Below the pieces are notes generated by a model. It saw only the letters and a program-made list of their open reading frames with translations, was not told where the DNA came from and ran no database searches. Shown piece by piece: positions 1 through 64,000 of a stretch of 64,000 nt of DNA. Both the position numbers and the translations under genes were made by a program. Source of the stretch: Anoxybacteroides voinovskiense (GTDB lineage: Bacteria; Bacillota; Bacilli; Bacillales; Anoxybacillaceae); NCBI RefSeq assembly GCF_014196205.1, contig NZ_JACIDE010000008.1, positions 1 through 64,000 of the forward strand. The letters run 5' to 3'. Within the stretch, counting starts at the first letter, position 1; each line of letters opens with the position of its first letter.

Positions 1-89
1 TTTAGCATACTGTTTCAGAAAAGGGGAGGGGGACATTCCGAAGGAATTTGCAAAAAAGAAGGCGTTTTATTCGGGGATAAAATGATAAT

Positions 90-3000: not shown

Positions 3001-3830
3001 TCAGCTTTAACCGTTAAAATATACCCTTGATCATCCTGTTGAAGTTCGTATGTTACATGTTCCGAGCGCTGTGCTTCTCCCGAGTGTTCGTCGATATTCG
3101 AATCGACCATAAATGGTTTAGGAAGTTCAAATACTTTTTCATTTTCTTTGTTTGTAAATAAAATCGATCCATCGTCTTGAATATTGGCATGCAAATCGGT
3201 TTTCAAACGAAATTTGAAAATGTGATAGCCCGTAAAAGAGTGAAGAACTAAATCTTCTTTCGTTGATTCGTTAAATACGATATTTTGCAAGTCTATATTT
3301 GGAAAAATATTTTTATGCACAATCTTATTGTCTTTTTTCTTATAAATAGCGGGAACATCTTTCGCTTGAATCGGCTTCAGTCCATTCCCTGATGCTTCTA
3401 AAATAGAATAAGAAATGGAATATTCATTATACAGAAATTTTGCATATTCTCCATCCACCATTTTCTTGTAAAAACGAGGTTCCAAAATCGTATTCTCTGC
3501 TTGAACATGATTGGGATGGTCGATGAAGAAAGTGGAAACTTCCTCAAATTGTTTTTCGTTCTTTTTCTTAATATGAATCGGTTCAAAGAAAATTTTTCTG
3601 GTAAACGTACCATCACCATTGTAATACACTTTCGTATTCTCTGTTCGTTCCCCTATCAGCTCTCCCGGCTTCAAGTTGATGCTAGGCGCTTCTGGTACTT
3701 TAAGAGGTGATTGTTTCATCGCATTGTCAGATTTAGAATAGATGAACTCCGCCAATCCCTCCATAGGAATACTCGTAAAAACTAATAAAAATACTAACCA
3801 CCAAACAAACCATGTTCTTAGATGCCTCAT
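90..3830 (-). CDS. Secreted DNRLRE / triple FnIII-like / HNH-type C-terminal protein (WapA-like tip)
   Basis: Large secreted protein of about 1246 residues. The start at 3830 follows AAGGAGAG at good spacing and opens a signal peptide (basic MRHLR, then a hydrophobic stretch ending near GLAEF). An upstream in-frame ATG at 3875 has no RBS. Domains: a DNRLRE-type carbohydrate-binding/cell-wall module at about 300-445; three tandem FnIII-like repeats of about 125 residues at about 468-860, each with the GATGYKVWIFNG-type core; an acidic low-complexity linker at about 863-1040; and a C-terminal tip with EVHHIRPREYGGNNDYSNL, the WapA/polymorphic-toxin HNH signature. The protein stops four residues after GGNNDYS, so the last metal-binding His of an HNH fold is missing. 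RHS/YD repeats are absent. It is probably an exported surface protein with a nuclease tip that is truncated or inactive. The function is inferred. Confidence 0.8.
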   Translation of the reverse strand: MRHLRTWFVWWLVFLLVFTSIPMEGLAEFIYSKSDNAMKQSPLKVPEAPSINLKPGELIGERTENTKVYYNGDGTFTRKIFFEPIHIKKKNEKQFEEVSTFFIDHPNHVQAENTILEPRFYKKMVDGEYAKFLYNEYSISYSILEASGNGLKPIQAKDVPAIYKKKDNKIVHKNIFPNIDLQNIVFNESTKEDLVLHSFTGYHIFKFRLKTDLHANIQDDGSILFTNKENEKVFELPKPFMVDSNIDEHSGEAQRSEHVTYELQQDDQGYILTVKADPQWLKDPKRVYPVYIDPSTSVAIAADAFVMSAYPTTNYGSASSKWDSAQGQYVLKVGYYDGTTGTCYGFLNPDISNIENMNVTSATFNVYVTHSYYATTATGLWLDAVNGSWSASTLTWNNKPSSTNIGKVDVARDQWAQFDVTSTVKAWASGTKPNYGLKLHTNGNDQTYWKKVVSTTNSSYKPYLSVTYTIPIPDAPTGTVFSNGDGTGYVNLSWDPVPGATGYKVWIYNGKAYEAFSVGNVTSWSTKGKKIWPTASEISAGRYDLHHDGLGTELAVDPSPVYRNSGGSYPNSKNYWLRVSAIFPQGESAVSGAYMPTIPNLAKPDVPTGVSYTNGNGTGYINFKWQAVSGATGYKIWMFNGSYYESLDVGNVTSWTTQGKKYWPTPTEFSNGRYQLHLNDNLGAELPVDPSSTYAKAGTRYANSTNYWIRVSAYNSQGETVFSDAYMPKISPLPKPATPLGVAFGYDEKKGAVELSWGGLEGATGYKVWIFNGKEYESIDVGNVNTWTTAEKGIWPRDEDIANGRYKLCLDGSGTELDINPSPLYTNADAKYANSNNYYFRISAYDQYGETVVSEAFVSSISPITEKEAMIDNTPVDEEGWIEEGYEDIDITTDGEKVLEDLKENISETSDQINELKDFPETTEIYNELSNVDIEEEVVKEEINNLTHQIENEKTIYSESSTTEQVQSDSVTANNLSFTSSKPDDTSEEIEEVFYDYPEDMFLPETIVNVDTNLILVDSNTGETYSTEEYISQAVAKEQRNTVQTASYLPQLGYFLTKEVTYVKNAGTTNATIVHCSTVVQAGGNLRPNYFTVKASLLSSNDVNGPFDVAASTTKYNVKLLQDVCVEKRITSTKFWIGKTHITAHYKGGYTSQKVKMSEKFLLNKKGVIYPYYRDPRMRKVMKKPSSTTWDRVPKEQRVKWSTSQRDKYLDWYIENYGFIIKSFYEVHHIRPREYGGNNDYSNLIL

Positions 3831-3881
3831 ATTTTCTCTCCTTATCAATCCTAAGTTGCCTAATTCGAGCCGCATGAGGAG

Positions 3882-3948
3882 ATTTTATGCTATAAAAAAC
3901 ATACTCGCAATATTTTCCGACAAACAAATTTCGTCATTATTCGACAAA
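3882..3948 (-). promoter_or_regulatory. Sigma-A-like promoter with three Spo0A-type boxes
   Basis: Reading the minus strand, TTGCGA (3905-3910) and TAAAAT (3882-3887) are separated by 17 bases, 52 bases ahead of the secreted-protein start. Immediately upstream lie three 0A-box-like sites: TTTGTCGAA at 3940-3948, TGACGAAA at 3929-3936 and TTTGTCGGAA at 3915-3924. The consensus core is TGNCGAA; two match it and the third has one mismatch. This suggests control by Spo0A and so expression tied to entry into stationary phase or sporulation. Confidence 0.5.
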
Positions 3949-4058
3949 AATCGATTTTATCACTTAACCTTTCAGACAGTAGCGATAACGGTCGTTTTTT
4001 TCAATTGTTTTGTACGATCATCCCGCTATGAGAAATGTGAGGAGTAGATGAACAATTA

Positions 4059-4247
4059 ATGATTTTTTTGGAGGATTTGATTACACTTATTCAAGAAAAG
4101 TACAATGAAACATTAACCGCGCCTACTGATGAATCCGCCGAGGACAAATCTTTTAGATTGGGCTCCAATTTCGCATATTTTGATGTATTTGATTTGATAG
4201 AATCCCAATTGACAATACACGAAATAAATTCTATTTTAGGACTGTGA
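4059..4247 (+). CDS. Small acidic hypothetical protein (62 aa)
   Basis: A 62-residue acidic protein on the plus strand, divergent from the secreted protein. The core LGSNFAYFDVFDLIESQL looks like a real protein, with amphipathic helix patterning, rather than a shadow reading frame. The ATG at 4059 has GAGGAG about 14 bases upstream, which is long spacing, so the start is uncertain. I do not recognise the family. Small acidic proteins next to polymorphic toxins are often immunity proteins, but here the gene lies 5-prime of the toxin-like gene and on the other strand, so an immunity role is only a guess. It may also be a C-terminally shortened remnant. Confidence 0.4.
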   Translation: MIFLEDLITLIQEKYNETLTAPTDESAEDKSFRLGSNFAYFDVFDLIESQLTIHEINSILGL

Positions 4248-4427
4248 CAAATGTTGCTGCTTTCTTAACTTGTTGACCATGAGAAGCACTCATTTGTCTA
4301 GTCCGAACTTTCAACAAACTACAAAAACAAAATTAATCCTGATTCGAAGACATCCTTATTTGATAAAACGATATAAATTCAACAGAGGGATACCAAAATA
4401 AGTAAAGCAAAAATTATATTTACTACC

Positions 4428-4598
4428 ATGACAGGGGTTATCATAGGGTTAATCGTTAGTCTTTTATTATTAGTCATAAAAAGTACCGCAAAAGATTTTT
4501 TAAAAACATACTCCCTCGATTGGGTTATTGATGTGCTACTCTTTCTTGTATTTATTTTCATTGTAGTGCAATATATCCAAAAGAAAAGAAAAACTTGA
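4428..4598 (+). CDS. Small two-helix membrane protein; possible ATA start 30 bases upstream
   Basis: The plus-strand frame encodes two hydrophobic segments (TGVIIGLIVSLLLLVI and VIDVLLFLVFIFIVV) joined by a short polar loop, ending in the basic tail QKKRKT and TGA. From the ATG at 4428 the product is 56 residues. A better-looking N-terminus starts at codon 4398: ATA AGT AAA GCA would read (M)SKAKIIFTTM, and AGAGGG lies 8 bases upstream of that ATA. Either ATA replaces an ancestral ATG or translation begins at 4428. Overlapping minus-strand reading is a shadow. The family is not recognised; a small holin-like or sensor-subunit role cannot be excluded. Confidence 0.5.
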   Translation: MTGVIIGLIVSLLLLVIKSTAKDFLKTYSLDWVIDVLLFLVFIFIVVQYIQKKRKT

Positions 4599-4604
4599 AA
4601 GAAA

Positions 4605-4632
4605 GGATGCCCTCATGCGAAGGCATCCTTAT
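4605..4632. terminator. Bidirectional terminator between small membrane gene and eno
   Basis: Perfect 7-bp stem GGATGCC (4605-4611) / GGCATCC (4622-4628). It is followed by TTATTTTTT on the plus strand and by TTTCTTTC on the minus strand, so it can serve both converging units, including the glycolytic operon. Confidence 0.8.
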
Positions 4633-4635
4633 TTT

Positions 4636-5931
<1,296 letters not shown>

Positions 5932-5943
5932 TCATCTCTCCTT

Positions 5944-9433
<3,490 letters not shown>

Positions 9434-48150: not shown

Positions 48151-50658
48151 TTATCGTCCGCAACAGTTTTTATATTTTTTGCCACTGCCGCAAATGCACG
48201 GGTCGTTTCGACCGATATCCATCGCTTTGCGTACCGGCTTTTTCTTCACTTCTCCTTCATCCTCTTTCGGATGAACGGCTTCCCCTTTGGCAACTTCTTG
48301 TCGCTCAAGGTTGCTGTGAATTTCTGCTTTCATCATGTATTTCGCGACTTCTTCTTCGATGGACGCGATCATCGCTTCAAACATCGCATATCCTTCCATT
48401 TGATACTCACGAAGCGGGTCGACTTGGCCGTACGCCCGCAAGTGAATGCCTTGGCGCAACTGCTCCATCGCATCAATATGATCCATCCATTTCATATCGA
48501 CAGCGCGAAGGACAATGACGCGCTCAAACTCGCGCATTTGCTCTGGTGCGATTTGCTGCTCTTTTTCGTCATAGCGCATTTTTACTTTTTGCCAAATGAG
48601 TTCGATCATTTCTTCCGGCTCTTTGCCGCGCAAGTCGTTGACCGTGACATCGCCTTCTGGTAAAAGGTTTGCGTTCACATAGTCGATAATGCCTTTTACA
48701 TCCCAATCTTCCGGCATTTCTTCACTCGGCGTATGCGCGTTCACGACCCGCTCGATGACCGATTGAATCATTTTTTCAACAATGCCGCGCAAGTTTTCCG
48801 AATCGAGCACTTCAAAACGTTGGCGGTAAATAATTTCGCGCTGCTCGCGCAACACATCGTCGTATTGCAACAATTGCTTGCGCGCATCGAAGTTGTTCCC
48901 TTCCACTCGTTTTTGCGCCGATTCGACCGCTTTCGTCACCATTTTGCTTTGAATCGGCTGCGAATCGTCCATGCCTAAGCGATCCATCATCGCCATTAAG
49001 TTTTCTGAACCGAAGCGGCGCATCAATTCATCTTCCAGCGATAAATAAAATTGCGATACCCCTGGGTCACCTTGGCGCCCAGAACGACCGCGCAGCTGAT
49101 TATCAATGCGGCGGCTTTCATGGCGCTCCGTACCAATGACCGCAAGTCCGCCAAGTTCTTTCACGCCTTCACCAAGCTTAATGTCCGTTCCGCGGCCTGC
49201 CATGTTTGTTGCGATCGTTACCGCGCCTTTTTGTCCTGCTTGCGCGATAATTTCCGCTTCTTTCGCATGGTTTTTCGCATTTAACACGTTATGCGGAATG
49301 CCGCGTTTCTTTAACAGGTTGGAAATTAATTCGGACGTTTCAATCGCGACCGTCCCGACGAGCACCGGCTGTCCTTTCGCATGGCGTTCCGCAATATCGT
49401 CCACGACGGCGCGGAACTTTCCTTCCATCGTTTTATAAATTAAGTCTGGGCGGTCGTCGCGGATGACGGGACGATTTGTCGGAATGACGACGACATGCAT
49501 GTTGTAAATGTTGCGAAACTCCTCTTCTTCCGTCTTTGCTGTACCAGTCATCCCAGCTAATTTTTCATACATCCGGAAGTAGTTTTGGAACGTAATCGTC
49601 GCAAGCGTCATCGATTCATTTTGGATTTCAAGCCCTTCTTTTGCCTCGATTGCTTGATGCAATCCATCGCTGTAGCGGCGACCGCGCATCAACCGGCCGG
49701 TAAACGGGTCAACGATCACGACTTTTCCGTCTTCGACGACGTAATCAATATCGCGATGCATTGTCACATGTGCTTTTAGCGCTTGGTTAATATGGTGGTT
49801 CAACGTCACATGTTTCAAGTCAAACAAGTTTTCGATGCCAAACGCCCGCTCGGCTTTCGTAATACCTTCTTCCGTCAGCTGGACGCTTTTTGTTTTTTCG
49901 TCGTACGTATAGTCGACGTCTTTTTTCAACGTGCGGACGAACGCATTTGCTTGAATATATAATTTCGTCGATTTTTGCGCGGTGCCGGAAATAATGAGCG
50001 GGGTGCGCGCTTCGTCAATTAAAATCGAGTCCACTTCGTCGATGACGGCAAAGTGAAGCGGCCGTTGCACCATATGCTCTTTATAAAGCACCATGTTGTC
50101 ACGCAAATAGTCAAAGCCGAATTCGTTGTTCGTTCCGTACGTAATATCGGCATTATACGCCGCTTGTTTTTCTTCGCGCGACATGCCCGTTAAGTTTAAA
50201 CCGACGGTTAACCCTAAAAATTCGTACAACCGCCCCATTTCTGTTGCGTCGCGGCTCGCGAGGTATTCGTTCACGGTAACGACGTGCACACCTTTCCCAG
50301 TAAGTGCATTTAAATACACCGGCATCGTCGCCGTTAACGTTTTCCCTTCCCCTGTTTTCATTTCCGCGATATTGCCTTCATGTAAGACAACACCACCCAT
50401 AATTTGCACTTTGTATGGATATAAACCAAGGACGCGCTTTGCCCCTTCACGCACCACCGCAAACGCTTCGACTAATAAATCATCGAGCGATTCGCCTTGT
50501 TGGTAGCGCGCTTTAAATTCTTCCGTTTTTTGGCGCAACGCTTCATCCGAAAGCTTCGCCATTTCCGGACCGAGCGCATCGACTTGCTCTGCAATTTTTT
50601 CTAATCGATGAATTTGGCGCTTGTTCGGGTCAAACACCTTTTTTAACACTCCAAGCAT
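48151..50658 (-). CDS. secA: Preprotein translocase ATPase SecA
   Basis: Motor of the Sec pathway. 835 residues, usual Gram-positive SecA1 length. Walker [19 protein letters not shown]-like [15 protein letters not shown], helicase motif [16 protein letters not shown], and the C-terminal zinc tail [13 protein letters not shown]. Precedes prfB. Confidence 0.98.
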
Positions 50659-50786: not shown

Positions 50787-51428
50787 TTACACTTGCGATT
50801 GCAGTTGTTCGATCGTTGCTTCCACTCGCAACAGACGTTTGTTAAGAGCATGGATTTCAAATCCTTTTTCATCGATCTTTCTATAAATGCTTTGCAATAA
50901 TGCATGTACATCATCGGCTAGTTGAATTTCTAGTCGTTGCACCGTTTCTTTTACCTCGCCTAGTTGCGTTTCTACATGCTCAAGCCGCGCCTTGACGTCA
51001 CGCATATCCGCTTCAAGACGGCTAATGCGCTTGTTTGTTTCTTTCATCTCTTGTTCAAGCGCGCCTAATCGAGTTTCCATGTGCGCAAACCGGTCATCCA
51101 TCTGAGCAAACCGGTCATCCATCTGAGCAAACCGTTCGTCAATCTGAGCAAACCGCTGATCAATCTCCGCAAACCGCTCGTCCATCTGTGCAAACCGCTG
51201 ATCAATTTCCGCAAACCGAGTATCAATTTGCTCAAACCTCTTGTCAATCTCCGCAAATCGCTCGTCCATCTGAGCAAACCGCTGATCAATTTCCGCAAAC
51301 CTAACATCCATTTGCTCAAATCGCTTGTCCATCTGGGCGAATCGGTCGCGCACTTCTTGTTGAAAAGATGAAAAACTACTTTCAATATTCGTCACTTTCG
51401 CTAAAATTTCGCGCAAAATGGCTTCCAT
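50787..51428 (-). CDS. Heptad-repeat coiled-coil protein
   Basis: 213 residues, almost all alpha-helical coiled coil. Residues 29-119 are thirteen near-identical heptads of the type RFAEIDQ / RFAQMDE, followed by less regular coiled coil to the C-terminus (ALEQEMKETNKRISRLEADM). It has no signal peptide or membrane segment. RBS GGAGGTGAGG. I do not recognise a specific function. Such proteins may be structural rods or tethers. It sits between secA and hpf. Confidence 0.8.
   Translation of the reverse strand: MEAILREILAKVTNIESSFSSFQQEVRDRFAQMDKRFEQMDVRFAEIDQRFAQMDERFAEIDKRFEQIDTRFAEIDQRFAQMDERFAEIDQRFAQIDERFAQMDDRFAQMDDRFAHMETRLGALEQEMKETNKRISRLEADMRDVKARLEHVETQLGEVKETVQRLEIQLADDVHALLQSIYRKIDEKGFEIHALNKRLLRVEATIEQLQSQV
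51072..51344 (-). repeat. 21-bp tandem repeats encoding RFAxxDx heptads
   Basis: Thirteen in-frame 21-base units. Neighbouring units are close copies at DNA level (for example the repeated cgctgatcaatttccgcaaa phrase at different positions), so length changes by slippage or unequal recombination are likely. Because the period is a multiple of three, the other frames are also open here. Confidence 0.85.
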
Positions 51429-51493: not shown

Positions 51494-52042
51494 TTAGTTC
51501 GTTTCAATTAAGCCGTACCGGCCGTCTTTGCGGCGGTAGACGATGTTTGTTCGGTTCGTTTCGGCGTTGGTAAAGACGAAGAAGTTATGTCCGAGCATGT
51601 TCATTTGCAAAATCGCTTCTTCGCTATCCATCGGTTTTAAGCTGAATCGCTTCGTTCGCACGAGCTCGAATTCTTCTTCTTCCGTTTCGACTGCCGTCGC
51701 TGGCGCATCATTTGGCGCAAATACTTGTTTCGTATCTTTATCGCGCCATTTCCGGTTCACTTTCGTTTTATGTTTGCGGATTTGGCGCTCTAATTTATCG
51801 GCGACTAAATCGATTGCCGCATACATATCGTCGTGGCGTTCTTCCGCCCGCAACACTAACTGCGGCATCGGAATCGTTACTTCAATTTTCGCTTGTTTAT
51901 CGTTATATACTTTTAAATTAACGTGTACTGTTACTCCTTCCGTCGATTCAAAATAACGTTCAAGTTTGCCGATTTTTTTCTCGACATACTCCCGTAGTGC
52001 CTGGGTAACCTCAATGTTTTCACCGCGAATGTTGTACTTCAT
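51494..52042 (-). CDS. hpf: Ribosome hibernation promoting factor, long form
   Basis: 182 residues from ATG 52042 (MKYNIRGENIEVTQALREYV; RBS AAAGGAGG ten bases upstream). The N-terminal S30AE domain binds the decoding region, and the C-terminal domain (QMNMLGHNFFVFTNAETNRT) dimerises to form 100S ribosomes. Same position as B. subtilis yvyD relative to secA. Overlapping stress promoters lie upstream. Confidence 0.96.
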   Translation of the reverse strand: MKYNIRGENIEVTQALREYVEKKIGKLERYFESTEGVTVHVNLKVYNDKQAKIEVTIPMPQLVLRAEERHDDMYAAIDLVADKLERQIRKHKTKVNRKWRDKDTKQVFAPNDAPATAVETEEEEFELVRTKRFSLKPMDSEEAILQMNMLGHNFFVFTNAETNRTNIVYRRKDGRYGLIETN

Positions 52043-52078
52043 ACGCTGTATGCCTCCTTTAATCAAAGGTTATATATA

Positions 52079-53310: not shown

Positions 53311-53338
53311 AGGAGCTCTGCTAGTAACGAGCTCCTTT
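53309..53338. terminator. Bidirectional terminator between HD-GYP gene and darG
   Basis: Perfect 10-bp stem AAAGGAGCTC / GAGCTCCTTT with a ten-base loop, overlapping or abutting both stop codons. Confidence 0.7.
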
Positions 53339-54379
53339 ATCATTTCCTTTCCCCACTATTCCAACCGCTTGTAAATGTTCCCATGCTTTTTGAATATGTT
53401 CTTTTTGGAATATTTTACGTTTTCGCTCATTCCATTGGTGTATTGCCTCAACAATCTGATGAATATCATTTATGTTACCATTTTCTTCGATTACCCAATG
53501 TACGGTAGAAAGCAACTCTAAGCCATACGGCGTTTCAAACCCCTGAATAATATCTCGTACTTTTCGTAACCGGTCATAAGCTTCTGCATCCCCTTGCAAA
53601 TATTGCTCTGCTTGTTGGACAGCGTTCGGCATCACATATATTTCTGCTTTTCGACTTCGGTCACCAAATCCGCGAATAAAATGACCGTCTAAACGAATGA
53701 ATACGTGGTTTAAGTTTTCGGCATACGGCCCGTACTTGCTTTTTTCAAATCGCAGCTTCAGTGGCTCTCCCACCACTTGGAGAAAATAGGCTAATTTTTG
53801 TACTTCAAGCAATGATAATTTATACCCTGGAATCGAGTAATCGTTCATTACCAGCAATAACAATGCCCTCGCTCTCGTCATCTTCGGAGGATTGGTGCGA
53901 ATCATTACTTGGTCGGGAACTGGGCTTTCAGCTGGCTCATATAAATGTACCTCGATGTTTGGTAGCGATTCAAACGTTTCTTCAATTTTTCGCCGTACTT
54001 CTTCCCATTGCAACCCTCCGTTCCCACACCCAAGCGGTGGAATGGCGATTGAGCGAATCCCAAGTTTTTTAATAACGTTTACTAAATCTACCAATCCTAA
54101 TTCAATATCCTCTATCCGCGATTTTTGTTTCCAATGGCGCTTTGTTGGGAAGTTAATGATATATTTTGGTGGAAAGAAAGAATCTCTTTTAAAAACATGC
54201 ATTTTCCCCGGCTGTAATTCTCCTCGTCGATAAGCTTTTTCATACTCACAAAACATATCGGGATACGCTTGTTTGAATTGCAAGGCAATTCCTTTTCCCA
54301 TCACACCGACGCAATTTACTGTATTCACAAGCGCTTCCGCATCATCTTCCAGTAAATTTCCTTGTTTGAAAACGATCAT
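53321..54379 (-). CDS. darG: DarG-type antitoxin: macro-domain DNA ADP-ribosyl glycohydrolase
   Basis: 352 residues. The N-terminal macrodomain (about 1-150: GNLLEDDAEALVNTVNCVGV, MGKGIALQFK, PPLGCGNGGLQW) removes ADP-ribose from DNA, and a C-terminal helical domain (about 175-350) is the usual DarG extension that binds DarT. ATG 54379 overlaps the darT stop as ATGA, which indicates coupling; in-frame ATGs upstream lie in the RBS. Identification as DarG rests on the macrodomain plus the adjoining DarT. Confidence 0.88.
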   Translation of the reverse strand: MIVFKQGNLLEDDAEALVNTVNCVGVMGKGIALQFKQAYPDMFCEYEKAYRRGELQPGKMHVFKRDSFFPPKYIINFPTKRHWKQKSRIEDIELGLVDLVNVIKKLGIRSIAIPPLGCGNGGLQWEEVRRKIEETFESLPNIEVHLYEPAESPVPDQVMIRTNPPKMTRARALLLLVMNDYSIPGYKLSLLEVQKLAYFLQVVGEPLKLRFEKSKYGPYAENLNHVFIRLDGHFIRGFGDRSRKAEIYVMPNAVQQAEQYLQGDAEAYDRLRKVRDIIQGFETPYGLELLSTVHWVIEENGNINDIHQIVEAIHQWNERKRKIFQKEHIQKAWEHLQAVGIVGKGNDKGARY

Positions 54380-55023
54380 TTCCATCTCCCCTCTCCATAG
54401 TACCAATGTGGACGAACAACCACTTGCTTATCGTGACGGTATTGCTGAAGAATCAGGTCTATTTTTTGTTTCATTTCACGATCCTTAACCGCAATCGCGA
54501 CAATCAATGCCACCGGAACGAACTGATGAACTAAAAACTCTGCTTGTCTTCTTCTTTTTCGGTCAGGGTCTTCTTCTGTGTCAAACCAAAACGAAGACTG
54601 CATCACTTTCCAATCAATTTTATTTAAATCCGCTAAGTCATGATAGAAACCAGTAAACTTCATAATGGCGTGACCGTCGGTGAACAAATAAGCTAATCCG
54701 CTACGATGGATAAGATCGGTTCGCGACAGAAGATAGACAATTTCATTCTGTCCTTCTTTATATCCTTCTACGTAGCCCTTATGAATAGCATACAACATAG
54801 GGGACTTAGGGGCAAAATAGAAAGGAACATAGTCATGCAAAGTACCATATGGAGGAATTGGGATAGAAGTCAGCGATCGTTTATTTTGTATTCCTACATT
54901 GGCAATGTCGATGTACGGAATACGGCTGCCCTTTATCATGCGATGTGCAACTAATCCCCCTTGCTCGAAAATAGACGGGAGATTCCTATAGTGAGTAAGA
55001 TGATACAACCATTTTTTGCTCAT
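54376..55023 (-). CDS. darT: DarT-type DNA ADP-ribosyltransferase toxin (DUF4433)
   Basis: 215 residues. DarT features: N-terminal LYHLTHYRNLPSIFEQGGLV NAD-site segment, PFYFAPKSPMLYAIHKG loop, and the catalytic Glu in RRRQAEFLVHQFVP. The family transfers ADP-ribose from NAD to thymidine in single-stranded DNA, stopping replication; it serves as a toxin and anti-phage effector. ATG 55023 lies nine bases after GGGGAGGG. It is preceded by a terminator-like hairpin of the fli operon, so it probably has its own transcript. Confidence 0.88.
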   Translation of the reverse strand: MSKKWLYHLTHYRNLPSIFEQGGLVAHRMIKGSRIPYIDIANVGIQNKRSLTSIPIPPYGTLHDYVPFYFAPKSPMLYAIHKGYVEGYKEGQNEIVYLLSRTDLIHRSGLAYLFTDGHAIMKFTGFYHDLADLNKIDWKVMQSSFWFDTEEDPDRKRRRQAEFLVHQFVPVALIVAIAVKDREMKQKIDLILQQYRHDKQVVVRPHWYYGEGRWK

Positions 55024-55059
55024 TATTATCATCCCTCCCCATTTATTCTAAAAGGAAGA

Positions 55060-56268: not shown

Positions 56269-57768
56269 TTATTTCGTTCCGCCGCCAAAGGCGTTCATTA
56301 AGTACGCACTTTGCGAATTCGCTTTATTAATCGCTTCCTCCATCGCCGTAAACTGCCGATAATAACGGTCTTCGATTTGCTTGAGACGGTCGTTGAAGGC
56401 ATCGATTTGGCTGTTGATTTGATTCAAATCACGACCAATCGAAAACTGCTGATTCGTCCAAACCGTTTTTCCGGCTTTTTGTTCAATCTTTCCGATCGTC
56501 CCTTTAATCGTATCCCGCAAGCGGCGGGCGATGCCTTTCGTATCAAACGTCGTGCCGTTGGCGTTAAATAGCTGGTACACCGAATTCGGGTCGTTTTCAA
56601 TCGCCGCTCGTAGCTTCGTTTCATCAATAATCAACTTTCCGTTTTCCAAATAGTTGCTCGATGTCGTAATCCCAATTTCCGAAAGGGTATCATAATTTGG
56701 ATTGATCGTTGGATCGTTCACTTTGCTGTAGACGTCAAGGCGCATTTGGCTTAAGCCGCCTGACAAAATCGAATCACGGCGGAGAAGCCCGCTTTTCGCT
56801 TTCTCTTCCCAAAGCTCGACTTGTTTCTCCGACATCGCTTGTTTTTGTTCATCTGTCAGCGGTAAGTAGTCGCGGTACCGTTCTTCTGATATTTTCGCAT
56901 TAATTTTACCAATAATTTCGTTATATTTGTCGACGAAGCCTTTAATTGCATTAAACGTGGCATCTGTATCGTTTGTCGTGGTGACAGAAGCCGTTCCTGC
57001 TTTTTTCAGCGTATAGGTGACATTATTAATCGTAAACGTATTCGTTGAACGTGATGTCACAAGACCGTTAATCGTAAATTGTGCATTCTCCCCCGCCGTT
57101 TTCCCTGTCAATTCTGCACCATTCGCAGCGCCCGTAAACCCGAGCTGTTGGAAAAACGAAGCAGTCGTTGCGTCCCCCATCACTAAACTTGCCGCTGCCC
57201 CTGTATCTTTCTTTGTAATCGAAATTTTTCCTGTCTGTGTATCACGGAACACCGTAATGCCAAGGTCGCTATTGCTGTTTAGTTGAGAGATCACCGCATC
57301 TAACGACGAGTTGGCTGCGATTGTAATCGTCACAGGGTTGGTTGGACTCGTGCCGTCACCGTTTGTTACGTTAATTTTCAATGTCGTATCTGTACCGCTT
57401 GGTGTATAACTAGAAGAAGCTGCTGAGACCCAAGTTGCTGCGGTAGCGACTTGCGTAACCGTTAAATTGGTGCTAATATTCGCTGCCGACGTATTCGCTG
57501 TCGCCGTAACAACACTCTCATCCGAACTCGTTGTCTTCTTTTTTAACATGTTGCTTTGCAACGTTAAATTATTAAAAATATAGCTATCTAAATCTTGAAG
57601 CAACGTATTCATCGAGCGATAGTCATCGCGCTGCCATTCTAAAATTTGTTTCTTTTGTTTTAGTTTATCAAGCGGCATGCGTTCGGCTTTCATTAAATCA
57701 CTGACGAGTTTGTCAATGTCCATACCGCTCGCCAAACCACTAATGCGCATATTGCTTGCCAATCTCAT
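56269..57768 (-). CDS. fliD: Flagellar hook-associated protein 2 (filament cap)
   Basis: 499 residues. Conserved N-terminal MRISGLASGMDIDKLVSDLM, central variable Thr/Ala-rich surface domain, and a C-terminal coiled coil with QIEDRYYRQFTAMEEAINKA. Forms the pentameric cap under which flagellin assembles. Start is either ATG 57768 or TTG 57762, which has better spacing from GGAGG. Confidence 0.94.
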   Translation of the reverse strand: MRLASNMRISGLASGMDIDKLVSDLMKAERMPLDKLKQKKQILEWQRDDYRSMNTLLQDLDSYIFNNLTLQSNMLKKKTTSSDESVVTATANTSAANISTNLTVTQVATAATWVSAASSSYTPSGTDTTLKINVTNGDGTSPTNPVTITIAANSSLDAVISQLNSNSDLGITVFRDTQTGKISITKKDTGAAASLVMGDATTASFFQQLGFTGAANGAELTGKTAGENAQFTINGLVTSRSTNTFTINNVTYTLKKAGTASVTTTNDTDATFNAIKGFVDKYNEIIGKINAKISEERYRDYLPLTDEQKQAMSEKQVELWEEKAKSGLLRRDSILSGGLSQMRLDVYSKVNDPTINPNYDTLSEIGITTSSNYLENGKLIIDETKLRAAIENDPNSVYQLFNANGTTFDTKGIARRLRDTIKGTIGKIEQKAGKTVWTNQQFSIGRDLNQINSQIDAFNDRLKQIEDRYYRQFTAMEEAINKANSQSAYLMNAFGGGTK

Positions 57769-57777
57769 TCACCTCCA

Positions 57778-58152
57778 TCAAATTTTCTTATCAACAATTA
57801 ACCCGACGAATTCCATCATCGCTGCATACATATCTAACAGCTTTTTCGGCGGAATTTCGCGAATGACTTCTTTCGTCCGCTCATCGACAATTTGCACATA
57901 ATATTCCTTCAACTCATCGTGTAACTCAAACTTCAACGACGTCTGGCTTGGCTGCAAAAATTCATTCATCCCTTTAATAATGTTTTCAAGTTGATCTTTT
58001 GATAACTCCTTGGGCGATTCTTTCGTCTCTTTATGTGCTTCTGCTTTCGGTTGATCGTCTGTCTGTTGCACCGGCACCTCATTTGAAGCCTTTTGGCTGC
58101 TTATATCCGAAAACGAAAAAGAAGGTTGTGAAGAAATACGTTCAATGGTCAC
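57778..58152 (-). CDS. flaG: FlaG family flagellar protein (YvyC-like)
   Basis: 124 residues: polar disordered N-terminus, then the FlaG domain with SLKFELHDELKEYYVQIVDE, EVIREIPPKKLLDMYAAMME and a hydrophobic C-terminus. It influences filament length in other bacteria. First gene of flaG-fliD-fliS-fliT. Confidence 0.92.
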   Translation of the reverse strand: MTIERISSQPSFSFSDISSQKASNEVPVQQTDDQPKAEAHKETKESPKELSKDQLENIIKGMNEFLQPSQTSLKFELHDELKEYYVQIVDERTKEVIREIPPKKLLDMYAAMMEFVGLIVDKKI

Positions 58153-58840: not shown

Positions 58841-60031
58841 CTATTCGATGCTGTAATACTGTATAACCTTTTTTACCCCTTGTATTATACTATCTATATC
58901 CTCATCGGTCATTTTCGGAAACAAAGGCAGGGTAATTACATTTTCATACCATTCTTCAGCAATTGGACATATTCCTCTTTTATATCCCGATTTTTGGTAA
59001 TAAGGATGGAAATATATCGGAATATAATGTACTTGGACTCCAATATTTTCAGCTTGCAACGCTTCGAAAACCTCTTTTCTTCCGACTTTCAATGCTGAAA
59101 CATTTAATTTGATAATATAAAGATGCCAGCTAGATGTCACACAATTGAGATGATGTGGTACAATGATTTCTTTCATCTCTTGAAAAGCCTCGTTATATCG
59201 ATTTGCTATCAATTGACGCCTCTCAATAAATTGATTAAGCTTTTGTAATTGCGAAAGACCTAATGCAGCTTGAATATCTGTCATACGGTAGTTGTAACCG
59301 AGATCAATCATCTCATAATACCATGGTCCTTCATGTTTGCTAAGAAGATGTGACTCTTTCGTAATTCCATGAGAACGGAACAATTTTAGTTTTTCATAAT
59401 AAACAGGAGAATCAGTGACAATGATTCCACCCTCCCCTGTCGTCACCAGTTTAACAGGGTGAAAGCTAAACATTGTCATGTCAGCTATACTCCCGATTTT
59501 CCTTCCTTTATACGTTGCACCTAAAGAATGGGCTCCATCTTCAATCACAGCTAACCCATACCTTTTAGCAATTTCCATAATAGGATCCAAATCCGCCGGT
59601 TGACCTGTAAAATCAACAGGTACAATTGCCTTGGTTTTTGGAGTAATCGCTTTCTCTATTTTACTTACATCAATATTATACGTTTGAGGATGAATATCAG
59701 AAAAAACTGGTTTCGCTCCTAAATATAAAACTGCATTTGCGGTAGCTGCAAAAGTAATCGGAGTCGTAATAATTTCATCACCTTCTCCGATCCCTGCAGC
59801 ATAGTAGGCTCCGTGCAACGCGGCTGTCCCGTTACAAAAGGCAACAGCATACTTTGCACCCACATAATTAGCAACCGCTTTTTCAAATTGTTCTAGCACT
59901 GGTCCTTGAGTGAGATAGGGACTTTTAAGGACTCTAACAACACTTTGAATATCATCATCATCAATCCACTGCCGACCATACGAAATCATTGTGTCTCGAA
60001 TTGGAGTACCGCCAAACAATGCAAGCTCCAA
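58841..60031 (-). CDS. pseC: UDP-4-amino-4,6-dideoxy-N-acetyl-altrosamine transaminase
   Basis: 396-residue DegT/DnrJ/EryC1 PLP aminotransferase. GKG-type N-terminus, AFCNGTAALHGAYYAAGIGE, TTPITFAATANAVLYLGA, and the PLP Lys in FSFHPVKLVTTGEGG. In pseudaminic acid synthesis it aminates the 4-keto sugar made by PseB. TTG start at 60031, seven bases after AGGAGG. Assigned PseC because PseG, PseH and PseI are adjacent. Confidence 0.9.
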   Translation of the reverse strand: MELALFGGTPIRDTMISYGRQWIDDDDIQSVVRVLKSPYLTQGPVLEQFEKAVANYVGAKYAVAFCNGTAALHGAYYAAGIGEGDEIITTPITFAATANAVLYLGAKPVFSDIHPQTYNIDVSKIEKAITPKTKAIVPVDFTGQPADLDPIMEIAKRYGLAVIEDGAHSLGATYKGRKIGSIADMTMFSFHPVKLVTTGEGGIIVTDSPVYYEKLKLFRSHGITKESHLLSKHEGPWYYEMIDLGYNYRMTDIQAALGLSQLQKLNQFIERRQLIANRYNEAFQEMKEIIVPHHLNCVTSSWHLYIIKLNVSALKVGRKEVFEALQAENIGVQVHYIPIYFHPYYQKSGYKRGICPIAEEWYENVITLPLFPKMTDEDIDSIIQGVKKVIQYYSIE

Positions 60032-60053
60032 AAAAATTCCTCCTATCCTTCCC

Positions 60054-61106
60054 TTATAAAATATGATCCCACGTTAAAGCTGTTCCCTTTTGCAAACGAA
60101 CTTTTGCTGTTTTTCCAATGATCTTCTCATAATATTTCGGTTCAAGCCCAAATCCCGGACGAATAACTTTTATATTTTCTTTTGTGAATGGCTGTCCTTC
60201 TTCTATATCTTGTGCAACATAAATTGATCTTCTAAATTTTATGGAGGCTTTCTCTTTTTCCGTCGGTCCGTAATGTACGTTACCCATCGCTTCCCAAGCA
60301 CGCTTTGTTTCCTCTACCAGCGCTTTCATTTCATGAGGCTCTAGAGAAAACGCTGCATCTACCCCACCATCTGCTCTTGAGAGAGTAAAATGCTTTTCAA
60401 TGACTGTTGCACCAAGCGCTACACTTGCTACGGCGACACCAATTCCTAGTGTATGATCTGATAACCCTACTTCACAATCAAATAGTTTCTTCATATGTGG
60501 AATCGTTAAAATATTTGAATCTGTCGGTGAAGCAGGATATGTACTTGTACATTTTAGAAGGACTAATTCTTTGCATCCAGCCTCGCGCGCTGTTCTGACT
60601 GTCTCATCAATTTCAGCAACCGTTGCCATTCCTGTTGAGATAATCAGTGGCTTGCCTGTAGAAGCCACTTTTTTAATTAGTGGAAGATCTGTATTTTCAA
60701 ACGATGCAATTTTATACATCGGTACATTTAGCTCTTCAAGAAAATCAACAGCTGTTTCATCAAATGGCGTACTAAAAGCAATAATCCCTAATTCGCGCGC
60801 TCTATCAAAAATTGGTTTATGCCACTCCCAAGGAGTATATGCTTGTTGGTAAAGTTTATAGAGAGTGTGTCCTTTCCATAAGCTTTTTAGATCTTCTATT
60901 TTAAAATCTTTGTTATCCAAATCTAACGTCATTGTATCCGCAGTATACGTTTGAATCTTTAGCGCATGTACTCCTGCTTTAGCTGCAGCTTCTACAATTT
61001 CTAGGGCGCGTTCTAGTGACTTATTGTGGTTCCCGGACATTTCAGCAATGATAAATGGCGGATGATCAGAACCTACTTTTTTATCTCCTAACGTCATTTC
61101 TGTCAC
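60054..61106 (-). CDS. pseI: Pseudaminic acid synthase
   Basis: Condenses 2,4-diacetamido-2,4,6-trideoxy-altrose with phosphoenolpyruvate. 350 residues: NeuB-type TIM barrel (FIIAEMSGNHNKSLERALEI, KIASFENTDLPLIKKVASTG, GLSDHTLGIGVAVAS) plus a C-terminal SAF/antifreeze-like domain (RRSIYVAQDIEEGQPFTKEN). GTG start 61106 after GAGGTGAGAG. Confidence 0.95.
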   Translation of the reverse strand: MTEMTLGDKKVGSDHPPFIIAEMSGNHNKSLERALEIVEAAAKAGVHALKIQTYTADTMTLDLDNKDFKIEDLKSLWKGHTLYKLYQQAYTPWEWHKPIFDRARELGIIAFSTPFDETAVDFLEELNVPMYKIASFENTDLPLIKKVASTGKPLIISTGMATVAEIDETVRTAREAGCKELVLLKCTSTYPASPTDSNILTIPHMKKLFDCEVGLSDHTLGIGVAVASVALGATVIEKHFTLSRADGGVDAAFSLEPHEMKALVEETKRAWEAMGNVHYGPTEKEKASIKFRRSIYVAQDIEEGQPFTKENIKVIRPGFGLEPKYYEKIIGKTAKVRLQKGTALTWDHIL

Positions 61107-61115
61107 GCTCTCACC

Positions 61116-61646
61116 TCACAATATATTTCTTTTAACAAGCTCCCATCTCTCTCGAAGCAGTACAAATAAAAGAACATCAACAAGTACATCATTCTTTTTT
61201 ACGTGCTTAAGTAGCCTTCCCTCATTATAGAAACCCAATTTCTGGTGAAAACGAATACTTATTTCGTTAAATTCTAGTACCTCCGCACATATCTTCCGCA
61301 TTTGTAACTCATAGAATGCATATTCAATCCCTAAATATCCTAATATCGTGCCGGCACCTTTTGGAGCATGTTCGTTGCCAATATAAAACCCCCAACTGCA
61401 TCTTCCATTTTTTCTGTCAATTTTGTTAAAACTTACGGTTCCGATCGGCTCATCTTTATAGATGAACATTTTAAATATTCTCGATGAATCATTTTGTAGA
61501 CTTTCAAACCAGCGAATGTGCTCTTCCATACTAATCGTATGATCATGATACATATATCTTCTGATACGTTCTGAATTTCTCCAACACAAAACAGTTTCTA
61601 AGTCTTCTTCAGTTATATCCCTTAGTCGATAGTCAAATAATAACAT
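61116..61646 (-). CDS. pseH: UDP-4-amino-sugar N4-acetyltransferase
   Basis: 176-residue GNAT acetyltransferase (YRLRDITEEDLETVLCWRNS, GFYIGNEHAPKGAGTILGYL, EFNEISIRFHQKLGFYNEGR). Acetylates the 4-amino group made by PseC. ATG 61646 with GGGGGATAG; overlaps the pseG end by 14 bases. Confidence 0.9.
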   Translation of the reverse strand: MLLFDYRLRDITEEDLETVLCWRNSERIRRYMYHDHTISMEEHIRWFESLQNDSSRIFKMFIYKDEPIGTVSFNKIDRKNGRCSWGFYIGNEHAPKGAGTILGYLGIEYAFYELQMRKICAEVLEFNEISIRFHQKLGFYNEGRLLKHVKKNDVLVDVLLFVLLRERWELVKRNIL

Positions 61647-62733
61647 CGCTATCCCCCTTTAACAAGGATACAACTAATTCATTCCCTAATGATTCGCCAA
61701 ACAAGTCTCTACATTTTCTTGACATATCCCTTAAGATTTTTTTATTATTTATTAACTTTTTTAGTGAGCAAACGATGTGCTCAATACAAATATTCTCTTT
61801 ATACCCAAGGTTATAAACAGCACCGTACCACTCTAGAGCATGGATTACTTGCTCTTGGTTACTCGCCAGTATAATAACTAAAGAAGGTAACCCTAGATAA
61901 CAACGCTCCCAAATCGCTGTACCACCAGCACCAATTGCTAAATCTGCTGTAGCCATTAATTCAGCCATATTGTTGATTTGACAGTGAAAGTGAAATCGGG
62001 GTACTTGACTACAAATATTTTGAATGCGTTCTTTATGTATATTTGACGTCCCTACAATAACATTGACTTCAATGTTACGAAACTCCTCTATCTTCAACGC
62101 CTCAAGAACCAACTCTGTCACATTATGCGGATCACTTCCGCCTAAAAAAACAACTATTCGTTTAACCTCTCCATTACGTTCCTTTAAATTGAGGCGAACT
62201 TTCTTAAATTCCTCTCTAATTAGAGCATATTTTGGTCCAAGCAGTAACCTCGTTTCATTTTTTACCAGATGTCTATATCTATTTTCCATTTGTGCATAGT
62301 AATTTTGATCCAATAAAAGATCGCAGTCATGCTTTCGATCCGCTAAATCATCAATCACCATTATTTTTTTTACATAAGGGCGAACTTCCTTTTGCCAATT
62401 TTCTTCGATACCGTAATGATCAATAATGAGCCAATCAATCGGTGCATTTTTTTTCAGCGATTGAATGGTGTCATGTACGTCTGTCAGCCAATGAGCACCT
62501 AGCCAATGAGAATGAGGCGTTAACCACTCAATTTCTTCTTGTATTTGAGGTAAACGAGCAACTTCATATCCCTTGCTTTCAATGAAATTACATAAATGCC
62601 CTTTATGCATACGACATATGAACATGACACGATTGCCGTACTTTTTTAATTCGTCAGCTAACGTTAAACATCTCATCACATGACCTGTACCGATCTCAAT
62701 AGATGCGTCAACACGAAAAAAAATGTTCATCAT
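61633..62733 (-). CDS. pseG: UDP-2,4-diacetamido-trideoxy-altropyranose hydrolase
   Basis: 366 residues, MurG-like glycosyltransferase-B fold used as a UDP-sugar hydrolase. N-terminal FFRVDASIEIGTGHVMRCLT carries the essential His, then VFLGGSDPHNVTELVLEALK and AIGAGGTAIWERCYLGLPSL. Releases UDP before PseI. Two consecutive ATGs at the start (62733, 62730). Confidence 0.93.
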   Translation of the reverse strand: MMNIFFRVDASIEIGTGHVMRCLTLADELKKYGNRVMFICRMHKGHLCNFIESKGYEVARLPQIQEEIEWLTPHSHWLGAHWLTDVHDTIQSLKKNAPIDWLIIDHYGIEENWQKEVRPYVKKIMVIDDLADRKHDCDLLLDQNYYAQMENRYRHLVKNETRLLLGPKYALIREEFKKVRLNLKERNGEVKRIVVFLGGSDPHNVTELVLEALKIEEFRNIEVNVIVGTSNIHKERIQNICSQVPRFHFHCQINNMAELMATADLAIGAGGTAIWERCYLGLPSLVIILASNQEQVIHALEWYGAVYNLGYKENICIEHIVCSLKKLINNKKILRDMSRKCRDLFGESLGNELVVSLLKGDSDVII

Positions 62734-62745
62734 TATAGTCCCTCA

Positions 62746-64000
62746 TTACGAACGAATTTTAAACAAAGGCTCTATTGGCTTTGTTCGCAACATTTGCTCT
62801 AGCGTTTCATTTTCCATCGCTTGCTTAATGACTGTTAGCACTTCAGCGTAAACGTTCAATGTTATTTCAATATCCTCGTCACTATGAGCGTAACTCATAT
62901 TATGCGTGCCAATCATCAACACGCCGCGCTGAAACAGTTCTTGCATAAATAATGTCTTTATTTCCCAAATGTTATATCGACTAGTCGGCTTAACATGTAC
63001 AAACGACCACGAAGGGTGTCCCGATAAATCAATCACTTCTTGAAGCTGCAATTTCTCTATAATATTCCGCAATCCATTTATAAGTTTACTTCCTTGTACA
63101 TACAACGTGTCAATAACGGGCTCTCGTTGCAATTTATTAAGGGTGGCTAACGATGCGGCTAACGACAATGTTTCCCCACCGAATGTAAACGAAAAGAAAA
63201 TTTCTTCCATCAGTTGCATAATCTCTTTTTTCCCTACAATTGCAGATAACGGATATCCATTAGCTAATCCTTTTCCAAATGTAGCTAAATCAGGGATTAC
63301 TCCGAAATATTCTTGAGCCCCACCATTTGCAAAACGAAAACCTGTAATCGTTTCATCGAAAATAAGGATGGCTCCGTGTTGATGTGTCAGCTCTTTTACC
63401 TCGTGCAAAAAGCCATTCTTTGGTTCTTGTACATTCATTGGCTCTAAAATAACAGCTGCAATATCATTAGGATACTGTTGAAACAGTTTCTTTAATGAAT
63501 CGATGTCATTATAAATAAACACGTGAGTCAGTTCTTTTGTTGCTTTTGGTACCCCTAAATCGCGTGACGTGGAGCCAATGTACCAGTCTTGCCACCCGTG
63601 ATACCCACATACTGCAACACGGTCACGGCGTGTAAACGCACGCGCTAAACGAATAGCACCAGCCGTAGCATCTGATTCATTTTTTCCAAAACGAACCATT
63701 TCTGCACAAGGAACCATCTCTATTATTTTTTCAGCTACAAATGTTTCTAACGGATGAGGTAGTGAGAAAATTGTCCCTTCATGTATTTGGGCAATGACTG
63801 CTTCTTGAACATCTGGATCGTTATAGCCGAGCGTAAGGGAAGCGAGACCATTCACAAAGTCAATATATTCATTACCATCAATATCAAATAGCCTACTTCC
63901 CTTTCCTTTTTGTGCAAATAACGGTGAAACACCTAAAGGATATTGTATCATACTTTTACTGAACGTCTGAGAAGCAAGCGGAATAGATTGAAGCGATCGC
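62746..64000 (-). CDS. Class III PLP aminotransferase (glutamate-1-semialdehyde aminomutase-like), 5-prime end outside window
   Basis: At least 417 residues. The frame stays open to the window edge (...LASQTFSKSMIQYPLGVSPLF), and related enzymes begin further upstream, so the start is not seen; ATG 63951 has no RBS. Features: DIDGNEYIDFVNGLASLTLG, DETITGFRFANGGAQEYFG and the PLP Lys in DLATFGKGLANGYPLSA. It lies 12 bases upstream of pseG in the same operon. It is not one of the six standard Pse enzymes and may modify the nonulosonic acid or make a donor amino group. Function inferred. Confidence 0.85.
   Translation of the reverse strand, partial: RSLQSIPLASQTFSKSMIQYPLGVSPLFAQKGKGSRLFDIDGNEYIDFVNGLASLTLGYNDPDVQEAVIAQIHEGTIFSLPHPLETFVAEKIIEMVPCAEMVRFGKNESDATAGAIRLARAFTRRDRVAVCGYHGWQDWYIGSTSRDLGVPKATKELTHVFIYNDIDSLKKLFQQYPNDIAAVILEPMNVQEPKNGFLHEVKELTHQHGAILIFDETITGFRFANGGAQEYFGVIPDLATFGKGLANGYPLSAIVGKKEIMQLMEEIFFSFTFGGETLSLAASLATLNKLQREPVIDTLYVQGSKLINGLRNIIEKLQLQEVIDLSGHPSWSFVHVKPTSRYNIWEIKTLFMQELFQRGVLMIGTHNMSYAHSDEDIEITLNVYAEVLTVIKQAMENETLEQMLRTKPIEPLFKIRS

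Follow-up and report, generated by a model that had tools for sequence, protein, structure and literature searches.

The right end of a 64,000-nucleotide stretch of the genome of Anoxybacteroides voinovskiense, a relative of Bacillus (assembly GCF_014196205.1, contig NZ_JACIDE010000008.1, forward-strand positions 1 to 64,000; hereafter the window) carries a gene cluster for pseudaminic acid (Pse), a sugar resembling sialic acid, beside flagellar genes and, in the same operon, a class III aminotransferase (AT). The contig, whose numbering is that of the window, extends past it and holds the rest of the operon. The AT recurs in diverse bacteria together with an aldo/keto reductase (AKR) and an SpsF-type cytidylyltransferase. 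We propose, with a probability of roughly 0.6, that the operon directs the synthesis and activation of an amino-modified pseudaminic acid and its placement on flagellin. The AT is no stray gene, and in the literature covered we found no function assigned to the recurrent tailoring module to which it belongs.

The pseudaminic acid operon and its cytidylyltransferase

Ten genes form the operon, in the order maf, methyltransferase, pseB, AKR, SpsF, AT, pseG, pseH, pseI and pseC. The intergenic gaps from maf to pseC range from -19 to +22 bp, and pseC and flaG lie 688 bp apart. The flagellin gene hag precedes maf, with an IS110 transposase gene between the two, and flaG-fliD lies downstream of the operon (Table 1). 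An initial annotation of the window had described pseG, pseH, pseI and pseC as consecutive genes near flagellar genes, and this stands: all four pass curated cut-offs, share the minus strand and have flaG-fliD downstream. It had also placed a non-standard aminotransferase in the same operon, as the spacing confirms, 1255 of the 1293 bases of the AT gene (counted from the stop) falling inside the window; the protein is not the housekeeping HemL, two copies of which lie elsewhere in the genome. The AT does lie outside the standard pathway, but it is not an isolated extra gene, being part of a recurrent AKR-SpsF-AT module.

All five of PseB, PseC, PseH, PseG and PseI exceed their curated cut-offs. 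Canonical PseF (TIGR03584 type) was not found: the cytidylyltransferase of the operon scores 32.9 bits against a cut-off of 205.7, and elsewhere in the genome PF02348 gives two matches, one of 26.8 bits to part of a 463-aa frame and one under the cut-off. By sequence, the SpsF-type enzyme appears to fill the place of PseF in a pathway that is otherwise complete. Its standing in other pse clusters can be judged from a sample drawn by PseI and not by the AT, which was drawn from 397 genomes of the window's order (80 PseI places in 73 of them) and from 369 of a proteobacterial class (39 places in 37) (loci are cited below by L numbers, that of the window being L009). With an annotated Agrobacterium PseF as the probe, SpsF occurs alone in 92 of these 119 loci, PseF alone in 21, both in one (L149, which also has an AKR) and neither in five. 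An SpsF-type enzyme is found in 78 of the 80 loci of the window's order, with one locus carrying both types and one neither. Because SpsF is the usual cytidylyltransferase of pse clusters in the order, a missing pseF is not damaging, and the AKR and AT are therefore an add-on around SpsF. The initial annotation had pointed to the right of the window for pseB, pseF and a glycosyltransferase, and had counted the absence of pseB or pseF against itself; pseB and a Maf-type glycosyltransferase are present there, whereas the cytidylyltransferase there fails the PseF model and is of the SpsF type, so that pseF is absent literally but not in substance.

A recurrent AKR-SpsF-AT module

One genome per species was scanned with an alignment of five ATs, which confirmed at least 419 relatives, and the best 80 loci were kept. 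They span about ten phyla as labelled in sequence records and include many metagenome-assembled genomes (MAGs); the label of L043 (Actinobacteria) is doubtful, for its AKR is almost the same as the one in L053, a Peptococcaceae MAG. By tblastn, and with distant homologues taken in, the 80 loci contain pseC (71), SpsF (69), pseI (66), pseB (64), AKR (64), pseG (59) and pseH (23). AKR, SpsF and AT occur together in 58 of them; carriers of this triad include Bacillus litorisediminis (L027), Metabacillus arenae (L045) and Janthinobacterium strains (L037, L046). The usual order, with gsat denoting the AT gene, is pseB-pseC-akr-spsF-gsat-pseG-(pseH)-pseI. The low pseH count is partly explained by PseG-PseH fusions, found in nine loci by an in-frame test. 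Fusions also join the parts of the module itself: AKR, SpsF and AT form one natural 982-aa frame in L094, and SpsF-AT fusions occur in two more loci (L059 and L076). The curated families, the tight operon and the similar gene order in other phyla together exclude a chance grouping. We likewise rejected the idea that the AT is an oddity of this genome, the cassette being found across many unrelated bacteria.

The AT seems to need an oxidoreductase, since all but six of the 80 loci carry either an AKR (64) or a Gfo/Idh/MocA protein (10), and none carries both. In three of the six remaining loci (L042, L077 and L089) the AT is within 0.6 kb of a contig edge. The PseI-centred sample gives a similar picture. 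Among its 119 loci, AT and AKR occur together in 11, AT alone in none, AKR alone in three and neither in 105, with a Fisher p of 3.5e-13 that, like the next, ignores shared ancestry. Leaving out the window and L037, both present because of their AT, changes the counts to 9, 0, 3 and 105 (p 2.7e-11). Seven of the 11 ATs belong to the window's subtype and four to a second subtype, 31–33% identical. Neither AT nor AKR is found in any of the 21 loci having PseF alone.

Several AT loci show variants of this arrangement. In the variant with Gfo/Idh/MocA and no AKR, a B12-binding radical S-adenosylmethionine (SAM) gene accompanies MocA in seven of the ten loci (L024, L025, L026, L029, L036, L041 and L055); the radical SAM and Gfo/Idh/MocA genes lie between pseC and spsF, and perhaps give a further altered nonulosonate. 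In L031 (6008-8644), L034, L089, L099 and others, HisH- and HisF-like genes are accompanied by a conserved neighbour without a Pfam match, a set that we take to be the one expected for acetamidino modification. A Methylomagnum ishizawai plasmid (L105, 7247-13692) carries in a row a 'Glycosyltransferase family protein', a split transketolase, a class III aminotransferase, a short-chain dehydrogenase/reductase (SDR), a NeuB-family synthase and a HAD hydrolase, which looks like another ulosonic acid pathway. A lead to the rhizobial rkp-3 region was dropped: the AT-like match of Sinorhizobium fredii NGR234 (1.34 Mb) is 0.4 Mb from PseI (0.94 Mb), and the two are unlinked.

The aminotransferase is distinct from HemL

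The AT scores 278.5 bits with the hemL model TIGR00713, under its cut-off of 527.3, and 426.7 bits with NF004856/PRK06209, also under the cut-off (486 bits; the relative L019 reaches 437.4). The genome's two HemL proteins score 668.2 and 577.5 bits, both over the hemL cut-off; L018, which has an internal stop, was left out of this scoring. In HemL, the arginine of the N-terminal NSPxR motif has a role with the substrate carboxylate. This residue, present in the genome's two HemL copies, is Lys28 in 86 of 86 ATs and in all four members of the second subtype. With scores under the cut-off, a lysine for the arginine and two true HemL copies elsewhere in the genome, we rejected the identification of the AT as HemL.

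All 86 aligned ATs of the close subtype, window included, retain the pyridoxal phosphate (PLP) lysine K256 together with D228, Y146 and H147 (L127 and L027, apparently one genome, count twice here and in the AKR residue alignment). From these intact residues we predict that the AT retains PLP chemistry. The structure model of the AT has a mean predicted local distance difference test (pLDDT) score of 86.4. Its nearest folds by E-value are glutamate-1-semialdehyde aminomutases (GSAMs), and omega-transaminases are also among the nearest; FumI has the top template-modelling (TM) scores (0.86/0.89) of the 50 matches listed. The amine on which FumI acts neighbours a terminal methyl group, as one at C8 of Pse would; we take this as a hint only.

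AT presence follows the SpsF tree

Five quick gene trees were built from one set of loci, 21 with the AT and 35 plain, with fewer rows where a gene was missing: loci lacking a match for the gene, or giving pieces under 120 aa, were dropped (47 rows remain for SpsF). On the SpsF tree, AT presence requires one change, with a support of 98, against a mean of 15.6 for shuffled labels. The PseI, PseG, PseC and PseB trees require 12, 13, 12 and 12 changes, respectively (shuffled, 16–17). A single AT clade is rejected for PseI (p 5e-5) and for PseC (p 1e-7), and a single clade of Bacillota rows is rejected for SpsF (p 4e-5). The simplest reading of these trees takes the early Pse enzymes to be ordinary and interchangeable; the AKR and AT would act after PseI, and this variant of SpsF would accept the altered sugar.

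The AKR and C8 of pseudaminic acid

A published system suggests which carbon is involved. Acinetobacter baumannii prophages encode EpaA (542 aa, CTP_transf_3 and Aldo_ket_red) and EpaB (262 aa, adh_short_C2), which convert Pse5Ac7Ac to the 8-epimer 8ePse5Ac7Ac, as determined by complementation and nuclear magnetic resonance (NMR) (Sharar et al. 2025, PMC12053666). As in the present operon, a cytidylyltransferase and an AKR are adjacent or joined and form an add-on to an ordinary pse cluster. The partner differs: in the Epa system it is an SDR (EpaB) that gives the 8-epimer, whereas in the present operon it is the class III aminotransferase, and no EpaB-type SDR was found within 3 kb of the AKR. 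A search of phages for an EpaA-like protein gave no match at 1e-10.

All three PseI loci with an AKR alone carry an SDR. L207 encodes a 545-aa SpsF-AKR protein and a 263-aa SDR, matching the published EpaA/EpaB architecture. L137, a pse cluster of the window's order, has a natural 888-aa NeuB-SpsF-AKR fusion (6622-9288, minus strand) beside its SDR, and L149 has an AKR, a Gfo/Idh protein and a more distant SDR. On a Priestia plasmid (L225) the order is spsF-AKR-SDR-pseG-pseH-pseI, with the SDR occupying the slot of the AT, and on a Marinovum plasmid (L226) a dehydrogenase lies beside an SpsF-AKR protein. Of 79 AKR loci, five have an SDR and lack an AT. The other 74, window included, have an AT, and tblastn with four SDR probes found no SDR less than 3 kb from their AKR. 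This exclusion is partly by construction, the probes having come from four of the five SDR loci.

The AKR tree has 45 rows, of which 34 are AT-linked (30 sampled from the main subtype), five are SDR-linked and six are other AKRs of the genome. The AT-linked and SDR-linked AKRs form one group apart from the genome's six others (support 99). Three SDR-linked AKRs are nested in AT-linked groups: that of Priestia joins two AT-linked AKRs (95), and those of L137 and L149 belong to a group of 32 whose members are mostly AT-linked (95). The catalytic tetrad D49, Y54, K76 and H109 is kept in 78 of 78 aligned AKRs, one AKR under 230 aa having been dropped. Given this grouping, the exclusion between SDR and AT, and the Epa result, the AKR would handle the C8 oxygen and its partner would decide between epimer and amine. 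On a wider SpsF tree, the SDR-linked SpsFs of L207 and L226 fall inside the AT-side group (support 97) and three other SDR-linked SpsFs fall outside; the placement of these two loci of Epa architecture fits a C8-altered substrate.

Proposed product and competing explanations

PseB, PseC, PseH, PseG and PseI would make Pse5Ac7Ac by the established pathway. We infer that, once the nonulosonic acid is complete, the AKR would oxidise one of its hydroxyls to a ketone, most probably the one at C8, and the AT would turn the 8-ketone into an amine, both ahead of cytidylylation. The SpsF variant travelling with the module would activate the aminated sugar with cytidine monophosphate (CMP), and the predicted donor is CMP-5,7-diacetamido-8-amino-8-deoxy-pseudaminic acid. 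With an OH of Pse5Ac7Ac exchanged for NH2, the residue would be C13H21N3O6 (315.143, against 316.127 for plain Pse5Ac7Ac), a formula that an acetamidino Pse would share. Maf would transfer this amino-modified sugar to Ser/Thr of flagellin, and the methyltransferase may modify it further. The modified nonulosonic acid anticipated in the initial annotation thereby gains indirect support from the AKR partner, the AT-tracking SpsF and the Epa precedent. Flagellin glycosylation, also anticipated, is supported by the Maf gene, by hag and flaG on either side, and by Geobacillus islands at the flaA2-flaG site (PMC5109656). Somewhat more tentatively, at just short of even odds, there may be a widespread 8-amino-8-deoxy-pseudaminic acid pathway, in which the AKR gives a common 8-keto intermediate, an SDR leads to the 8-epimer, the AT leads to the 8-amine, and a matching SpsF selects the form.

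A number of observations weigh against this proposal. The plain rows of the SpsF tree comprise 24 sampled from the window's order and only two others, and the AT label still clusters somewhat on the PseI, PseG, PseC and PseB trees. On the wider SpsF tree AT presence needs three changes: MocA-type AT loci contribute four SpsFs, all very divergent, that lie beyond the AT-side group, and the SDR-linked L207 and L226 lie within it. On the first SpsF tree, branch lengths place the SpsFs of L032 and L097 about equally close to plain ones. The AKRs closest to EpaA in architecture, those of L207 and L226, form a pair with a long branch at the unresolved base of the AT- and SDR-linked AKR group, not within the AT-linked AKRs. 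The likeness to EpaA is one of architecture and length, and by analogy the AKR is a putative dehydrogenase, although the oxidase of the Epa system might be either the AKR or the SDR. In 11 of the 80 AT loci the best synthase match is only a distant NeuB relative (26–43% identity), in 14 tblastn gave no pseI match (some at contig ends), and the module may also serve acids other than Pse. Most of the 80 loci are not visibly flagellar, with only 7 maf and 5 hag matches; because so few show flagellar genes, the sugar need not be flagellar elsewhere. Finally, an extra amine might bring an extra acyltransferase, and the window operon holds one GNAT only. GNAT numbers per cluster are mixed and are not used as evidence: the mean is 1.45 for 11 AT loci, against 0.74 and 0.48 for two sets of plain loci (74 and 31), but 0.87 for 60 AT-centred loci.

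The trees place the module after PseI without fixing the carbon, and amination at another position of the nonulosonic acid (e.g., C4) would give a different triamino sugar. The 10 of 80 loci with a MocA-type oxidoreductase and no AKR could be read in this way. We nevertheless consider another carbon unlikely, for published NMR ties SpsF-AKR with an SDR to C8 epimerisation (PMC12053666), and the one triamino Pse-like sugar that we found has its third amine at C8 (PMC3210612). The AKR and AT might also act earlier, on a uridine diphosphate (UDP)-sugar or the PseG product, with PseI condensing an altered hexose, as the gene order, which sets the AT beside pseG, would allow. This is improbable: the PseG and PseI trees do not track the AT as SpsF does, and the single AT-linked PseI clade is the one rejected at p 5e-5.

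Class III aminotransferases mostly use small omega-amino compounds, and the nearest folds of the AT are GSAMs and omega-transaminases. Both points would suit an AKR and AT that make a small amino acid or hydroxy-amine substituent for attachment to ordinary Pse. We give this scheme little credence, for no ligase or carrier was found in the window operon, and it leaves unexplained both the AKR-SpsF-AT fusion and the tracking of the AT by SpsF and not by PseB, PseC, PseG or PseI. That the AT is a displaced GSAM, or unrelated to glycans, and that the flagellin bears ordinary Pse is very improbable. Its sequence and fold are indeed closest to GSAM, but the two over-cut-off HemL proteins lie elsewhere, the window AT is under the cut-off and without the conserved arginine, and an AKR accompanies the AT in 11 of 11 AT loci of the PseI-centred sample.

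Relation to known sugars and pathways

The proposed route to an 8-amino Pse has a counterpart in KdnA-KdnB of Shewanella, which make 8-amino-Kdo (Kdo8N) from Kdo, a sugar whose C8 is a primary alcohol. The shared logic is oxidation of an alcohol followed by transamination at C8 of a ulosonic acid. The enzymes are of other families, namely a DegT-type aminotransferase and an iron alcohol dehydrogenase, and the likeness is one of logic. Kdo8N as a sugar appears in a review (PMC3210612) that also describes, in the O-polysaccharide of Flexibacter maritimus, a 5,7,8-triamino-3,5,7,8,9-pentadeoxy-manno-nonulosonic acid with an 8-amino group. In the review's account its C8 configuration is undetermined and its L configuration tentative, and a 3-hydroxybutyryl group is put at N5 in one sentence and at N7 in another. 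This sugar of Flexibacter (Tenacibaculum) maritimum belongs to the predicted class, and we found it described only as an O-antigen structure (PMC3210612). In the open-access literature we found no paper on genes for an 8-amino nonulosonic acid, and the terms 'nonulosonic', 'pseudaminic' and '8-amino' are absent from the main text of the T. maritimum genome paper (PMC5561996). A search toward Tenacibaculum through the family of a flavobacterial MAG gave matches at 1e-70 in 3 of 397 genomes, namely the MAG itself and two at 37–39% identity.

As a general rule, a molecule whose nominal mass is odd contains an odd number of nitrogen atoms. The flagellin sugar of Aeromonas hydrophila AH-1 has a mass of 403 Da and, in its authors' formula, no nitrogen (PMC4691044), which we leave as a hint only. 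In the Aeromonas subgroups IA to IE, Forn-Cuni et al. (PMC7874193) record that pseF is surrounded by genes for an 'alpha/keto reductase' and a class III AT. In the part of their report that describes them, the pair in these proteobacterial flagellin glycosylation islands (FGIs) is listed without a function, and we liken it to the present module by description. The A. hydrophila strains of FGI group I are assigned to IA or IB and to no other subgroup, and each of these two has an AKR together with a class III AT; two further strains are IIIC (PMC7874193); this too is a hint only.

If the proposal is true, genes would be assigned to a sugar that we found described only by structure, and that sugar would be predicted on flagella and other surface glycans in about ten phyla. 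The pair 'aldo/keto reductase' and 'glutamate-1-semialdehyde aminomutase' would mark it in many genomes, and the 8-amino sugar of Flexibacter maritimus would have a testable route and enzymes for making it. Several bacteria cannot assemble flagella without nonulosonic acids, which also belong to the surface met by hosts and phages. A free third amine would make this strongly acidic surface sugar zwitterionic.

The flagellin glycosylation island

The operon lies in a low-GC, variable segment that runs from the flagellin gene to flaG and includes a Maf gene. The GC content is 0.376 across 58001-70000 (0.343–0.400 per kb) versus 0.450 for the whole window, and is 0.43–0.51 in most stretches flanking the island. 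The hag-flaG gap, measurable in eight of ten relatives (five of the same genus; the other two have no measurable gap), spans 4.0 to 14.8 kb at a GC of 0.356–0.396, below the fetched flanks in seven of the eight. Its contents vary; for example, L242 has a plain pse cluster and L239 a different nonulosonate set, and tblastn found no AT or AKR in the fetched stretches of any of the ten relatives. At 1e-90 the AT occurs in 3 of 199 genomes (relatives and the genome itself), and is thus rare among near relatives. The initial annotation had argued from base composition for transfer. The low GC and the differing contents of the same site in relatives support this, and the cassette was probably imported, but an AT-rich composition is not particular to the island, as the first 6 kb of the window (1-6000) are likewise AT-rich (GC 0.369–0.407).

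Islands of this kind are known. De Maayer and Cowan (PMC5109656) describe horizontally acquired flagellin glycosylation islands at the flaA2-flaG site of Geobacillus, with a GC content about 10 points lower than that of the genome and with pse genes in Types II-IV. The present island shares with them the insertion site between a flagellin gene and flaG, the low GC and the pse genes. In the portions of that report covered here, neither an AKR nor a class III aminotransferase is mentioned. As a flagellin glycosylation island with pseudaminic acid genes, the present one is therefore of a known kind and is set apart by its content.

Table 1. Genes of the operon and its borders. Positions above 64,000 lie on the contig to the right of the window.
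Feature	Position	Strand	Evidence or remark
fliD	56269-57768	-	after flaG
flaG, inner island border	57778..58152	-	NF005834, 164 bits vs cut-off 107
pseC, UDP-4-keto sugar 4-aminotransferase, DegT family	58841..60031	-	TIGR03588, 516.7 bits vs cut-off 423.5
pseI, pseudaminic acid synthase	60054..61106	-	TIGR03586, 522.3 vs 340.25; NeuB + SAF (Pfam)
pseH, N-acetyltransferase	61116..61646	-	TIGR03585, 144.8 bits vs cut-off 93.1
pseG, UDP-sugar hydrolase	61633..62733	-	TIGR03590, 335.7 bits vs cut-off 153.55
AT (class III aminotransferase, also GSAT), 430 aa	62746..64038	-	PF00202; cut by the window at 64000
SpsF-type cytidylyltransferase	64056-64835	-	PF02348, 127.5 bits
AKR (aldo/keto reductase)	64817-65698	-	PF00248, 110.1 bits
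pseB	65695-66702	-	544 bits vs cut-off 407.75
TPR-methyltransferase	66709-67830	-	Methyltransf_11 + TPR_2
maf, Maf-type glycosyltransferase	67827-69662 (L009 9827-11662)	-	PF01973, 135.1 vs cut-off 34.6
IS110 transposase gene	70888-71853 (L009 12888-13853)		between hag and maf
hag, flagellin	72029-73189	-	NF009446, 396.8 bits vs cut-off 352

The IS110 gene in the hag-maf interval looks truncated, its C-terminal Transposase_20 match covering only positions 2-35 of 87. Adjoining the fli genes is a DarT-DarG toxin-antitoxin pair (a DNA ADP-ribosyltransferase at 54376-55032 and a glycohydrolase at 53321-54406, both on the minus strand), and a DarG-like match also occurs inside the hag-flaG gap of the relative L243. 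Further left in the window, 50787-51428 (minus strand) encodes a low-complexity protein with repeated 'RFAQMDERFAEID'-like units, probably a long coiled coil, whose neighbours are the open reading frames at 48151-50658 (SecA-like by eye) and 51494-52066.

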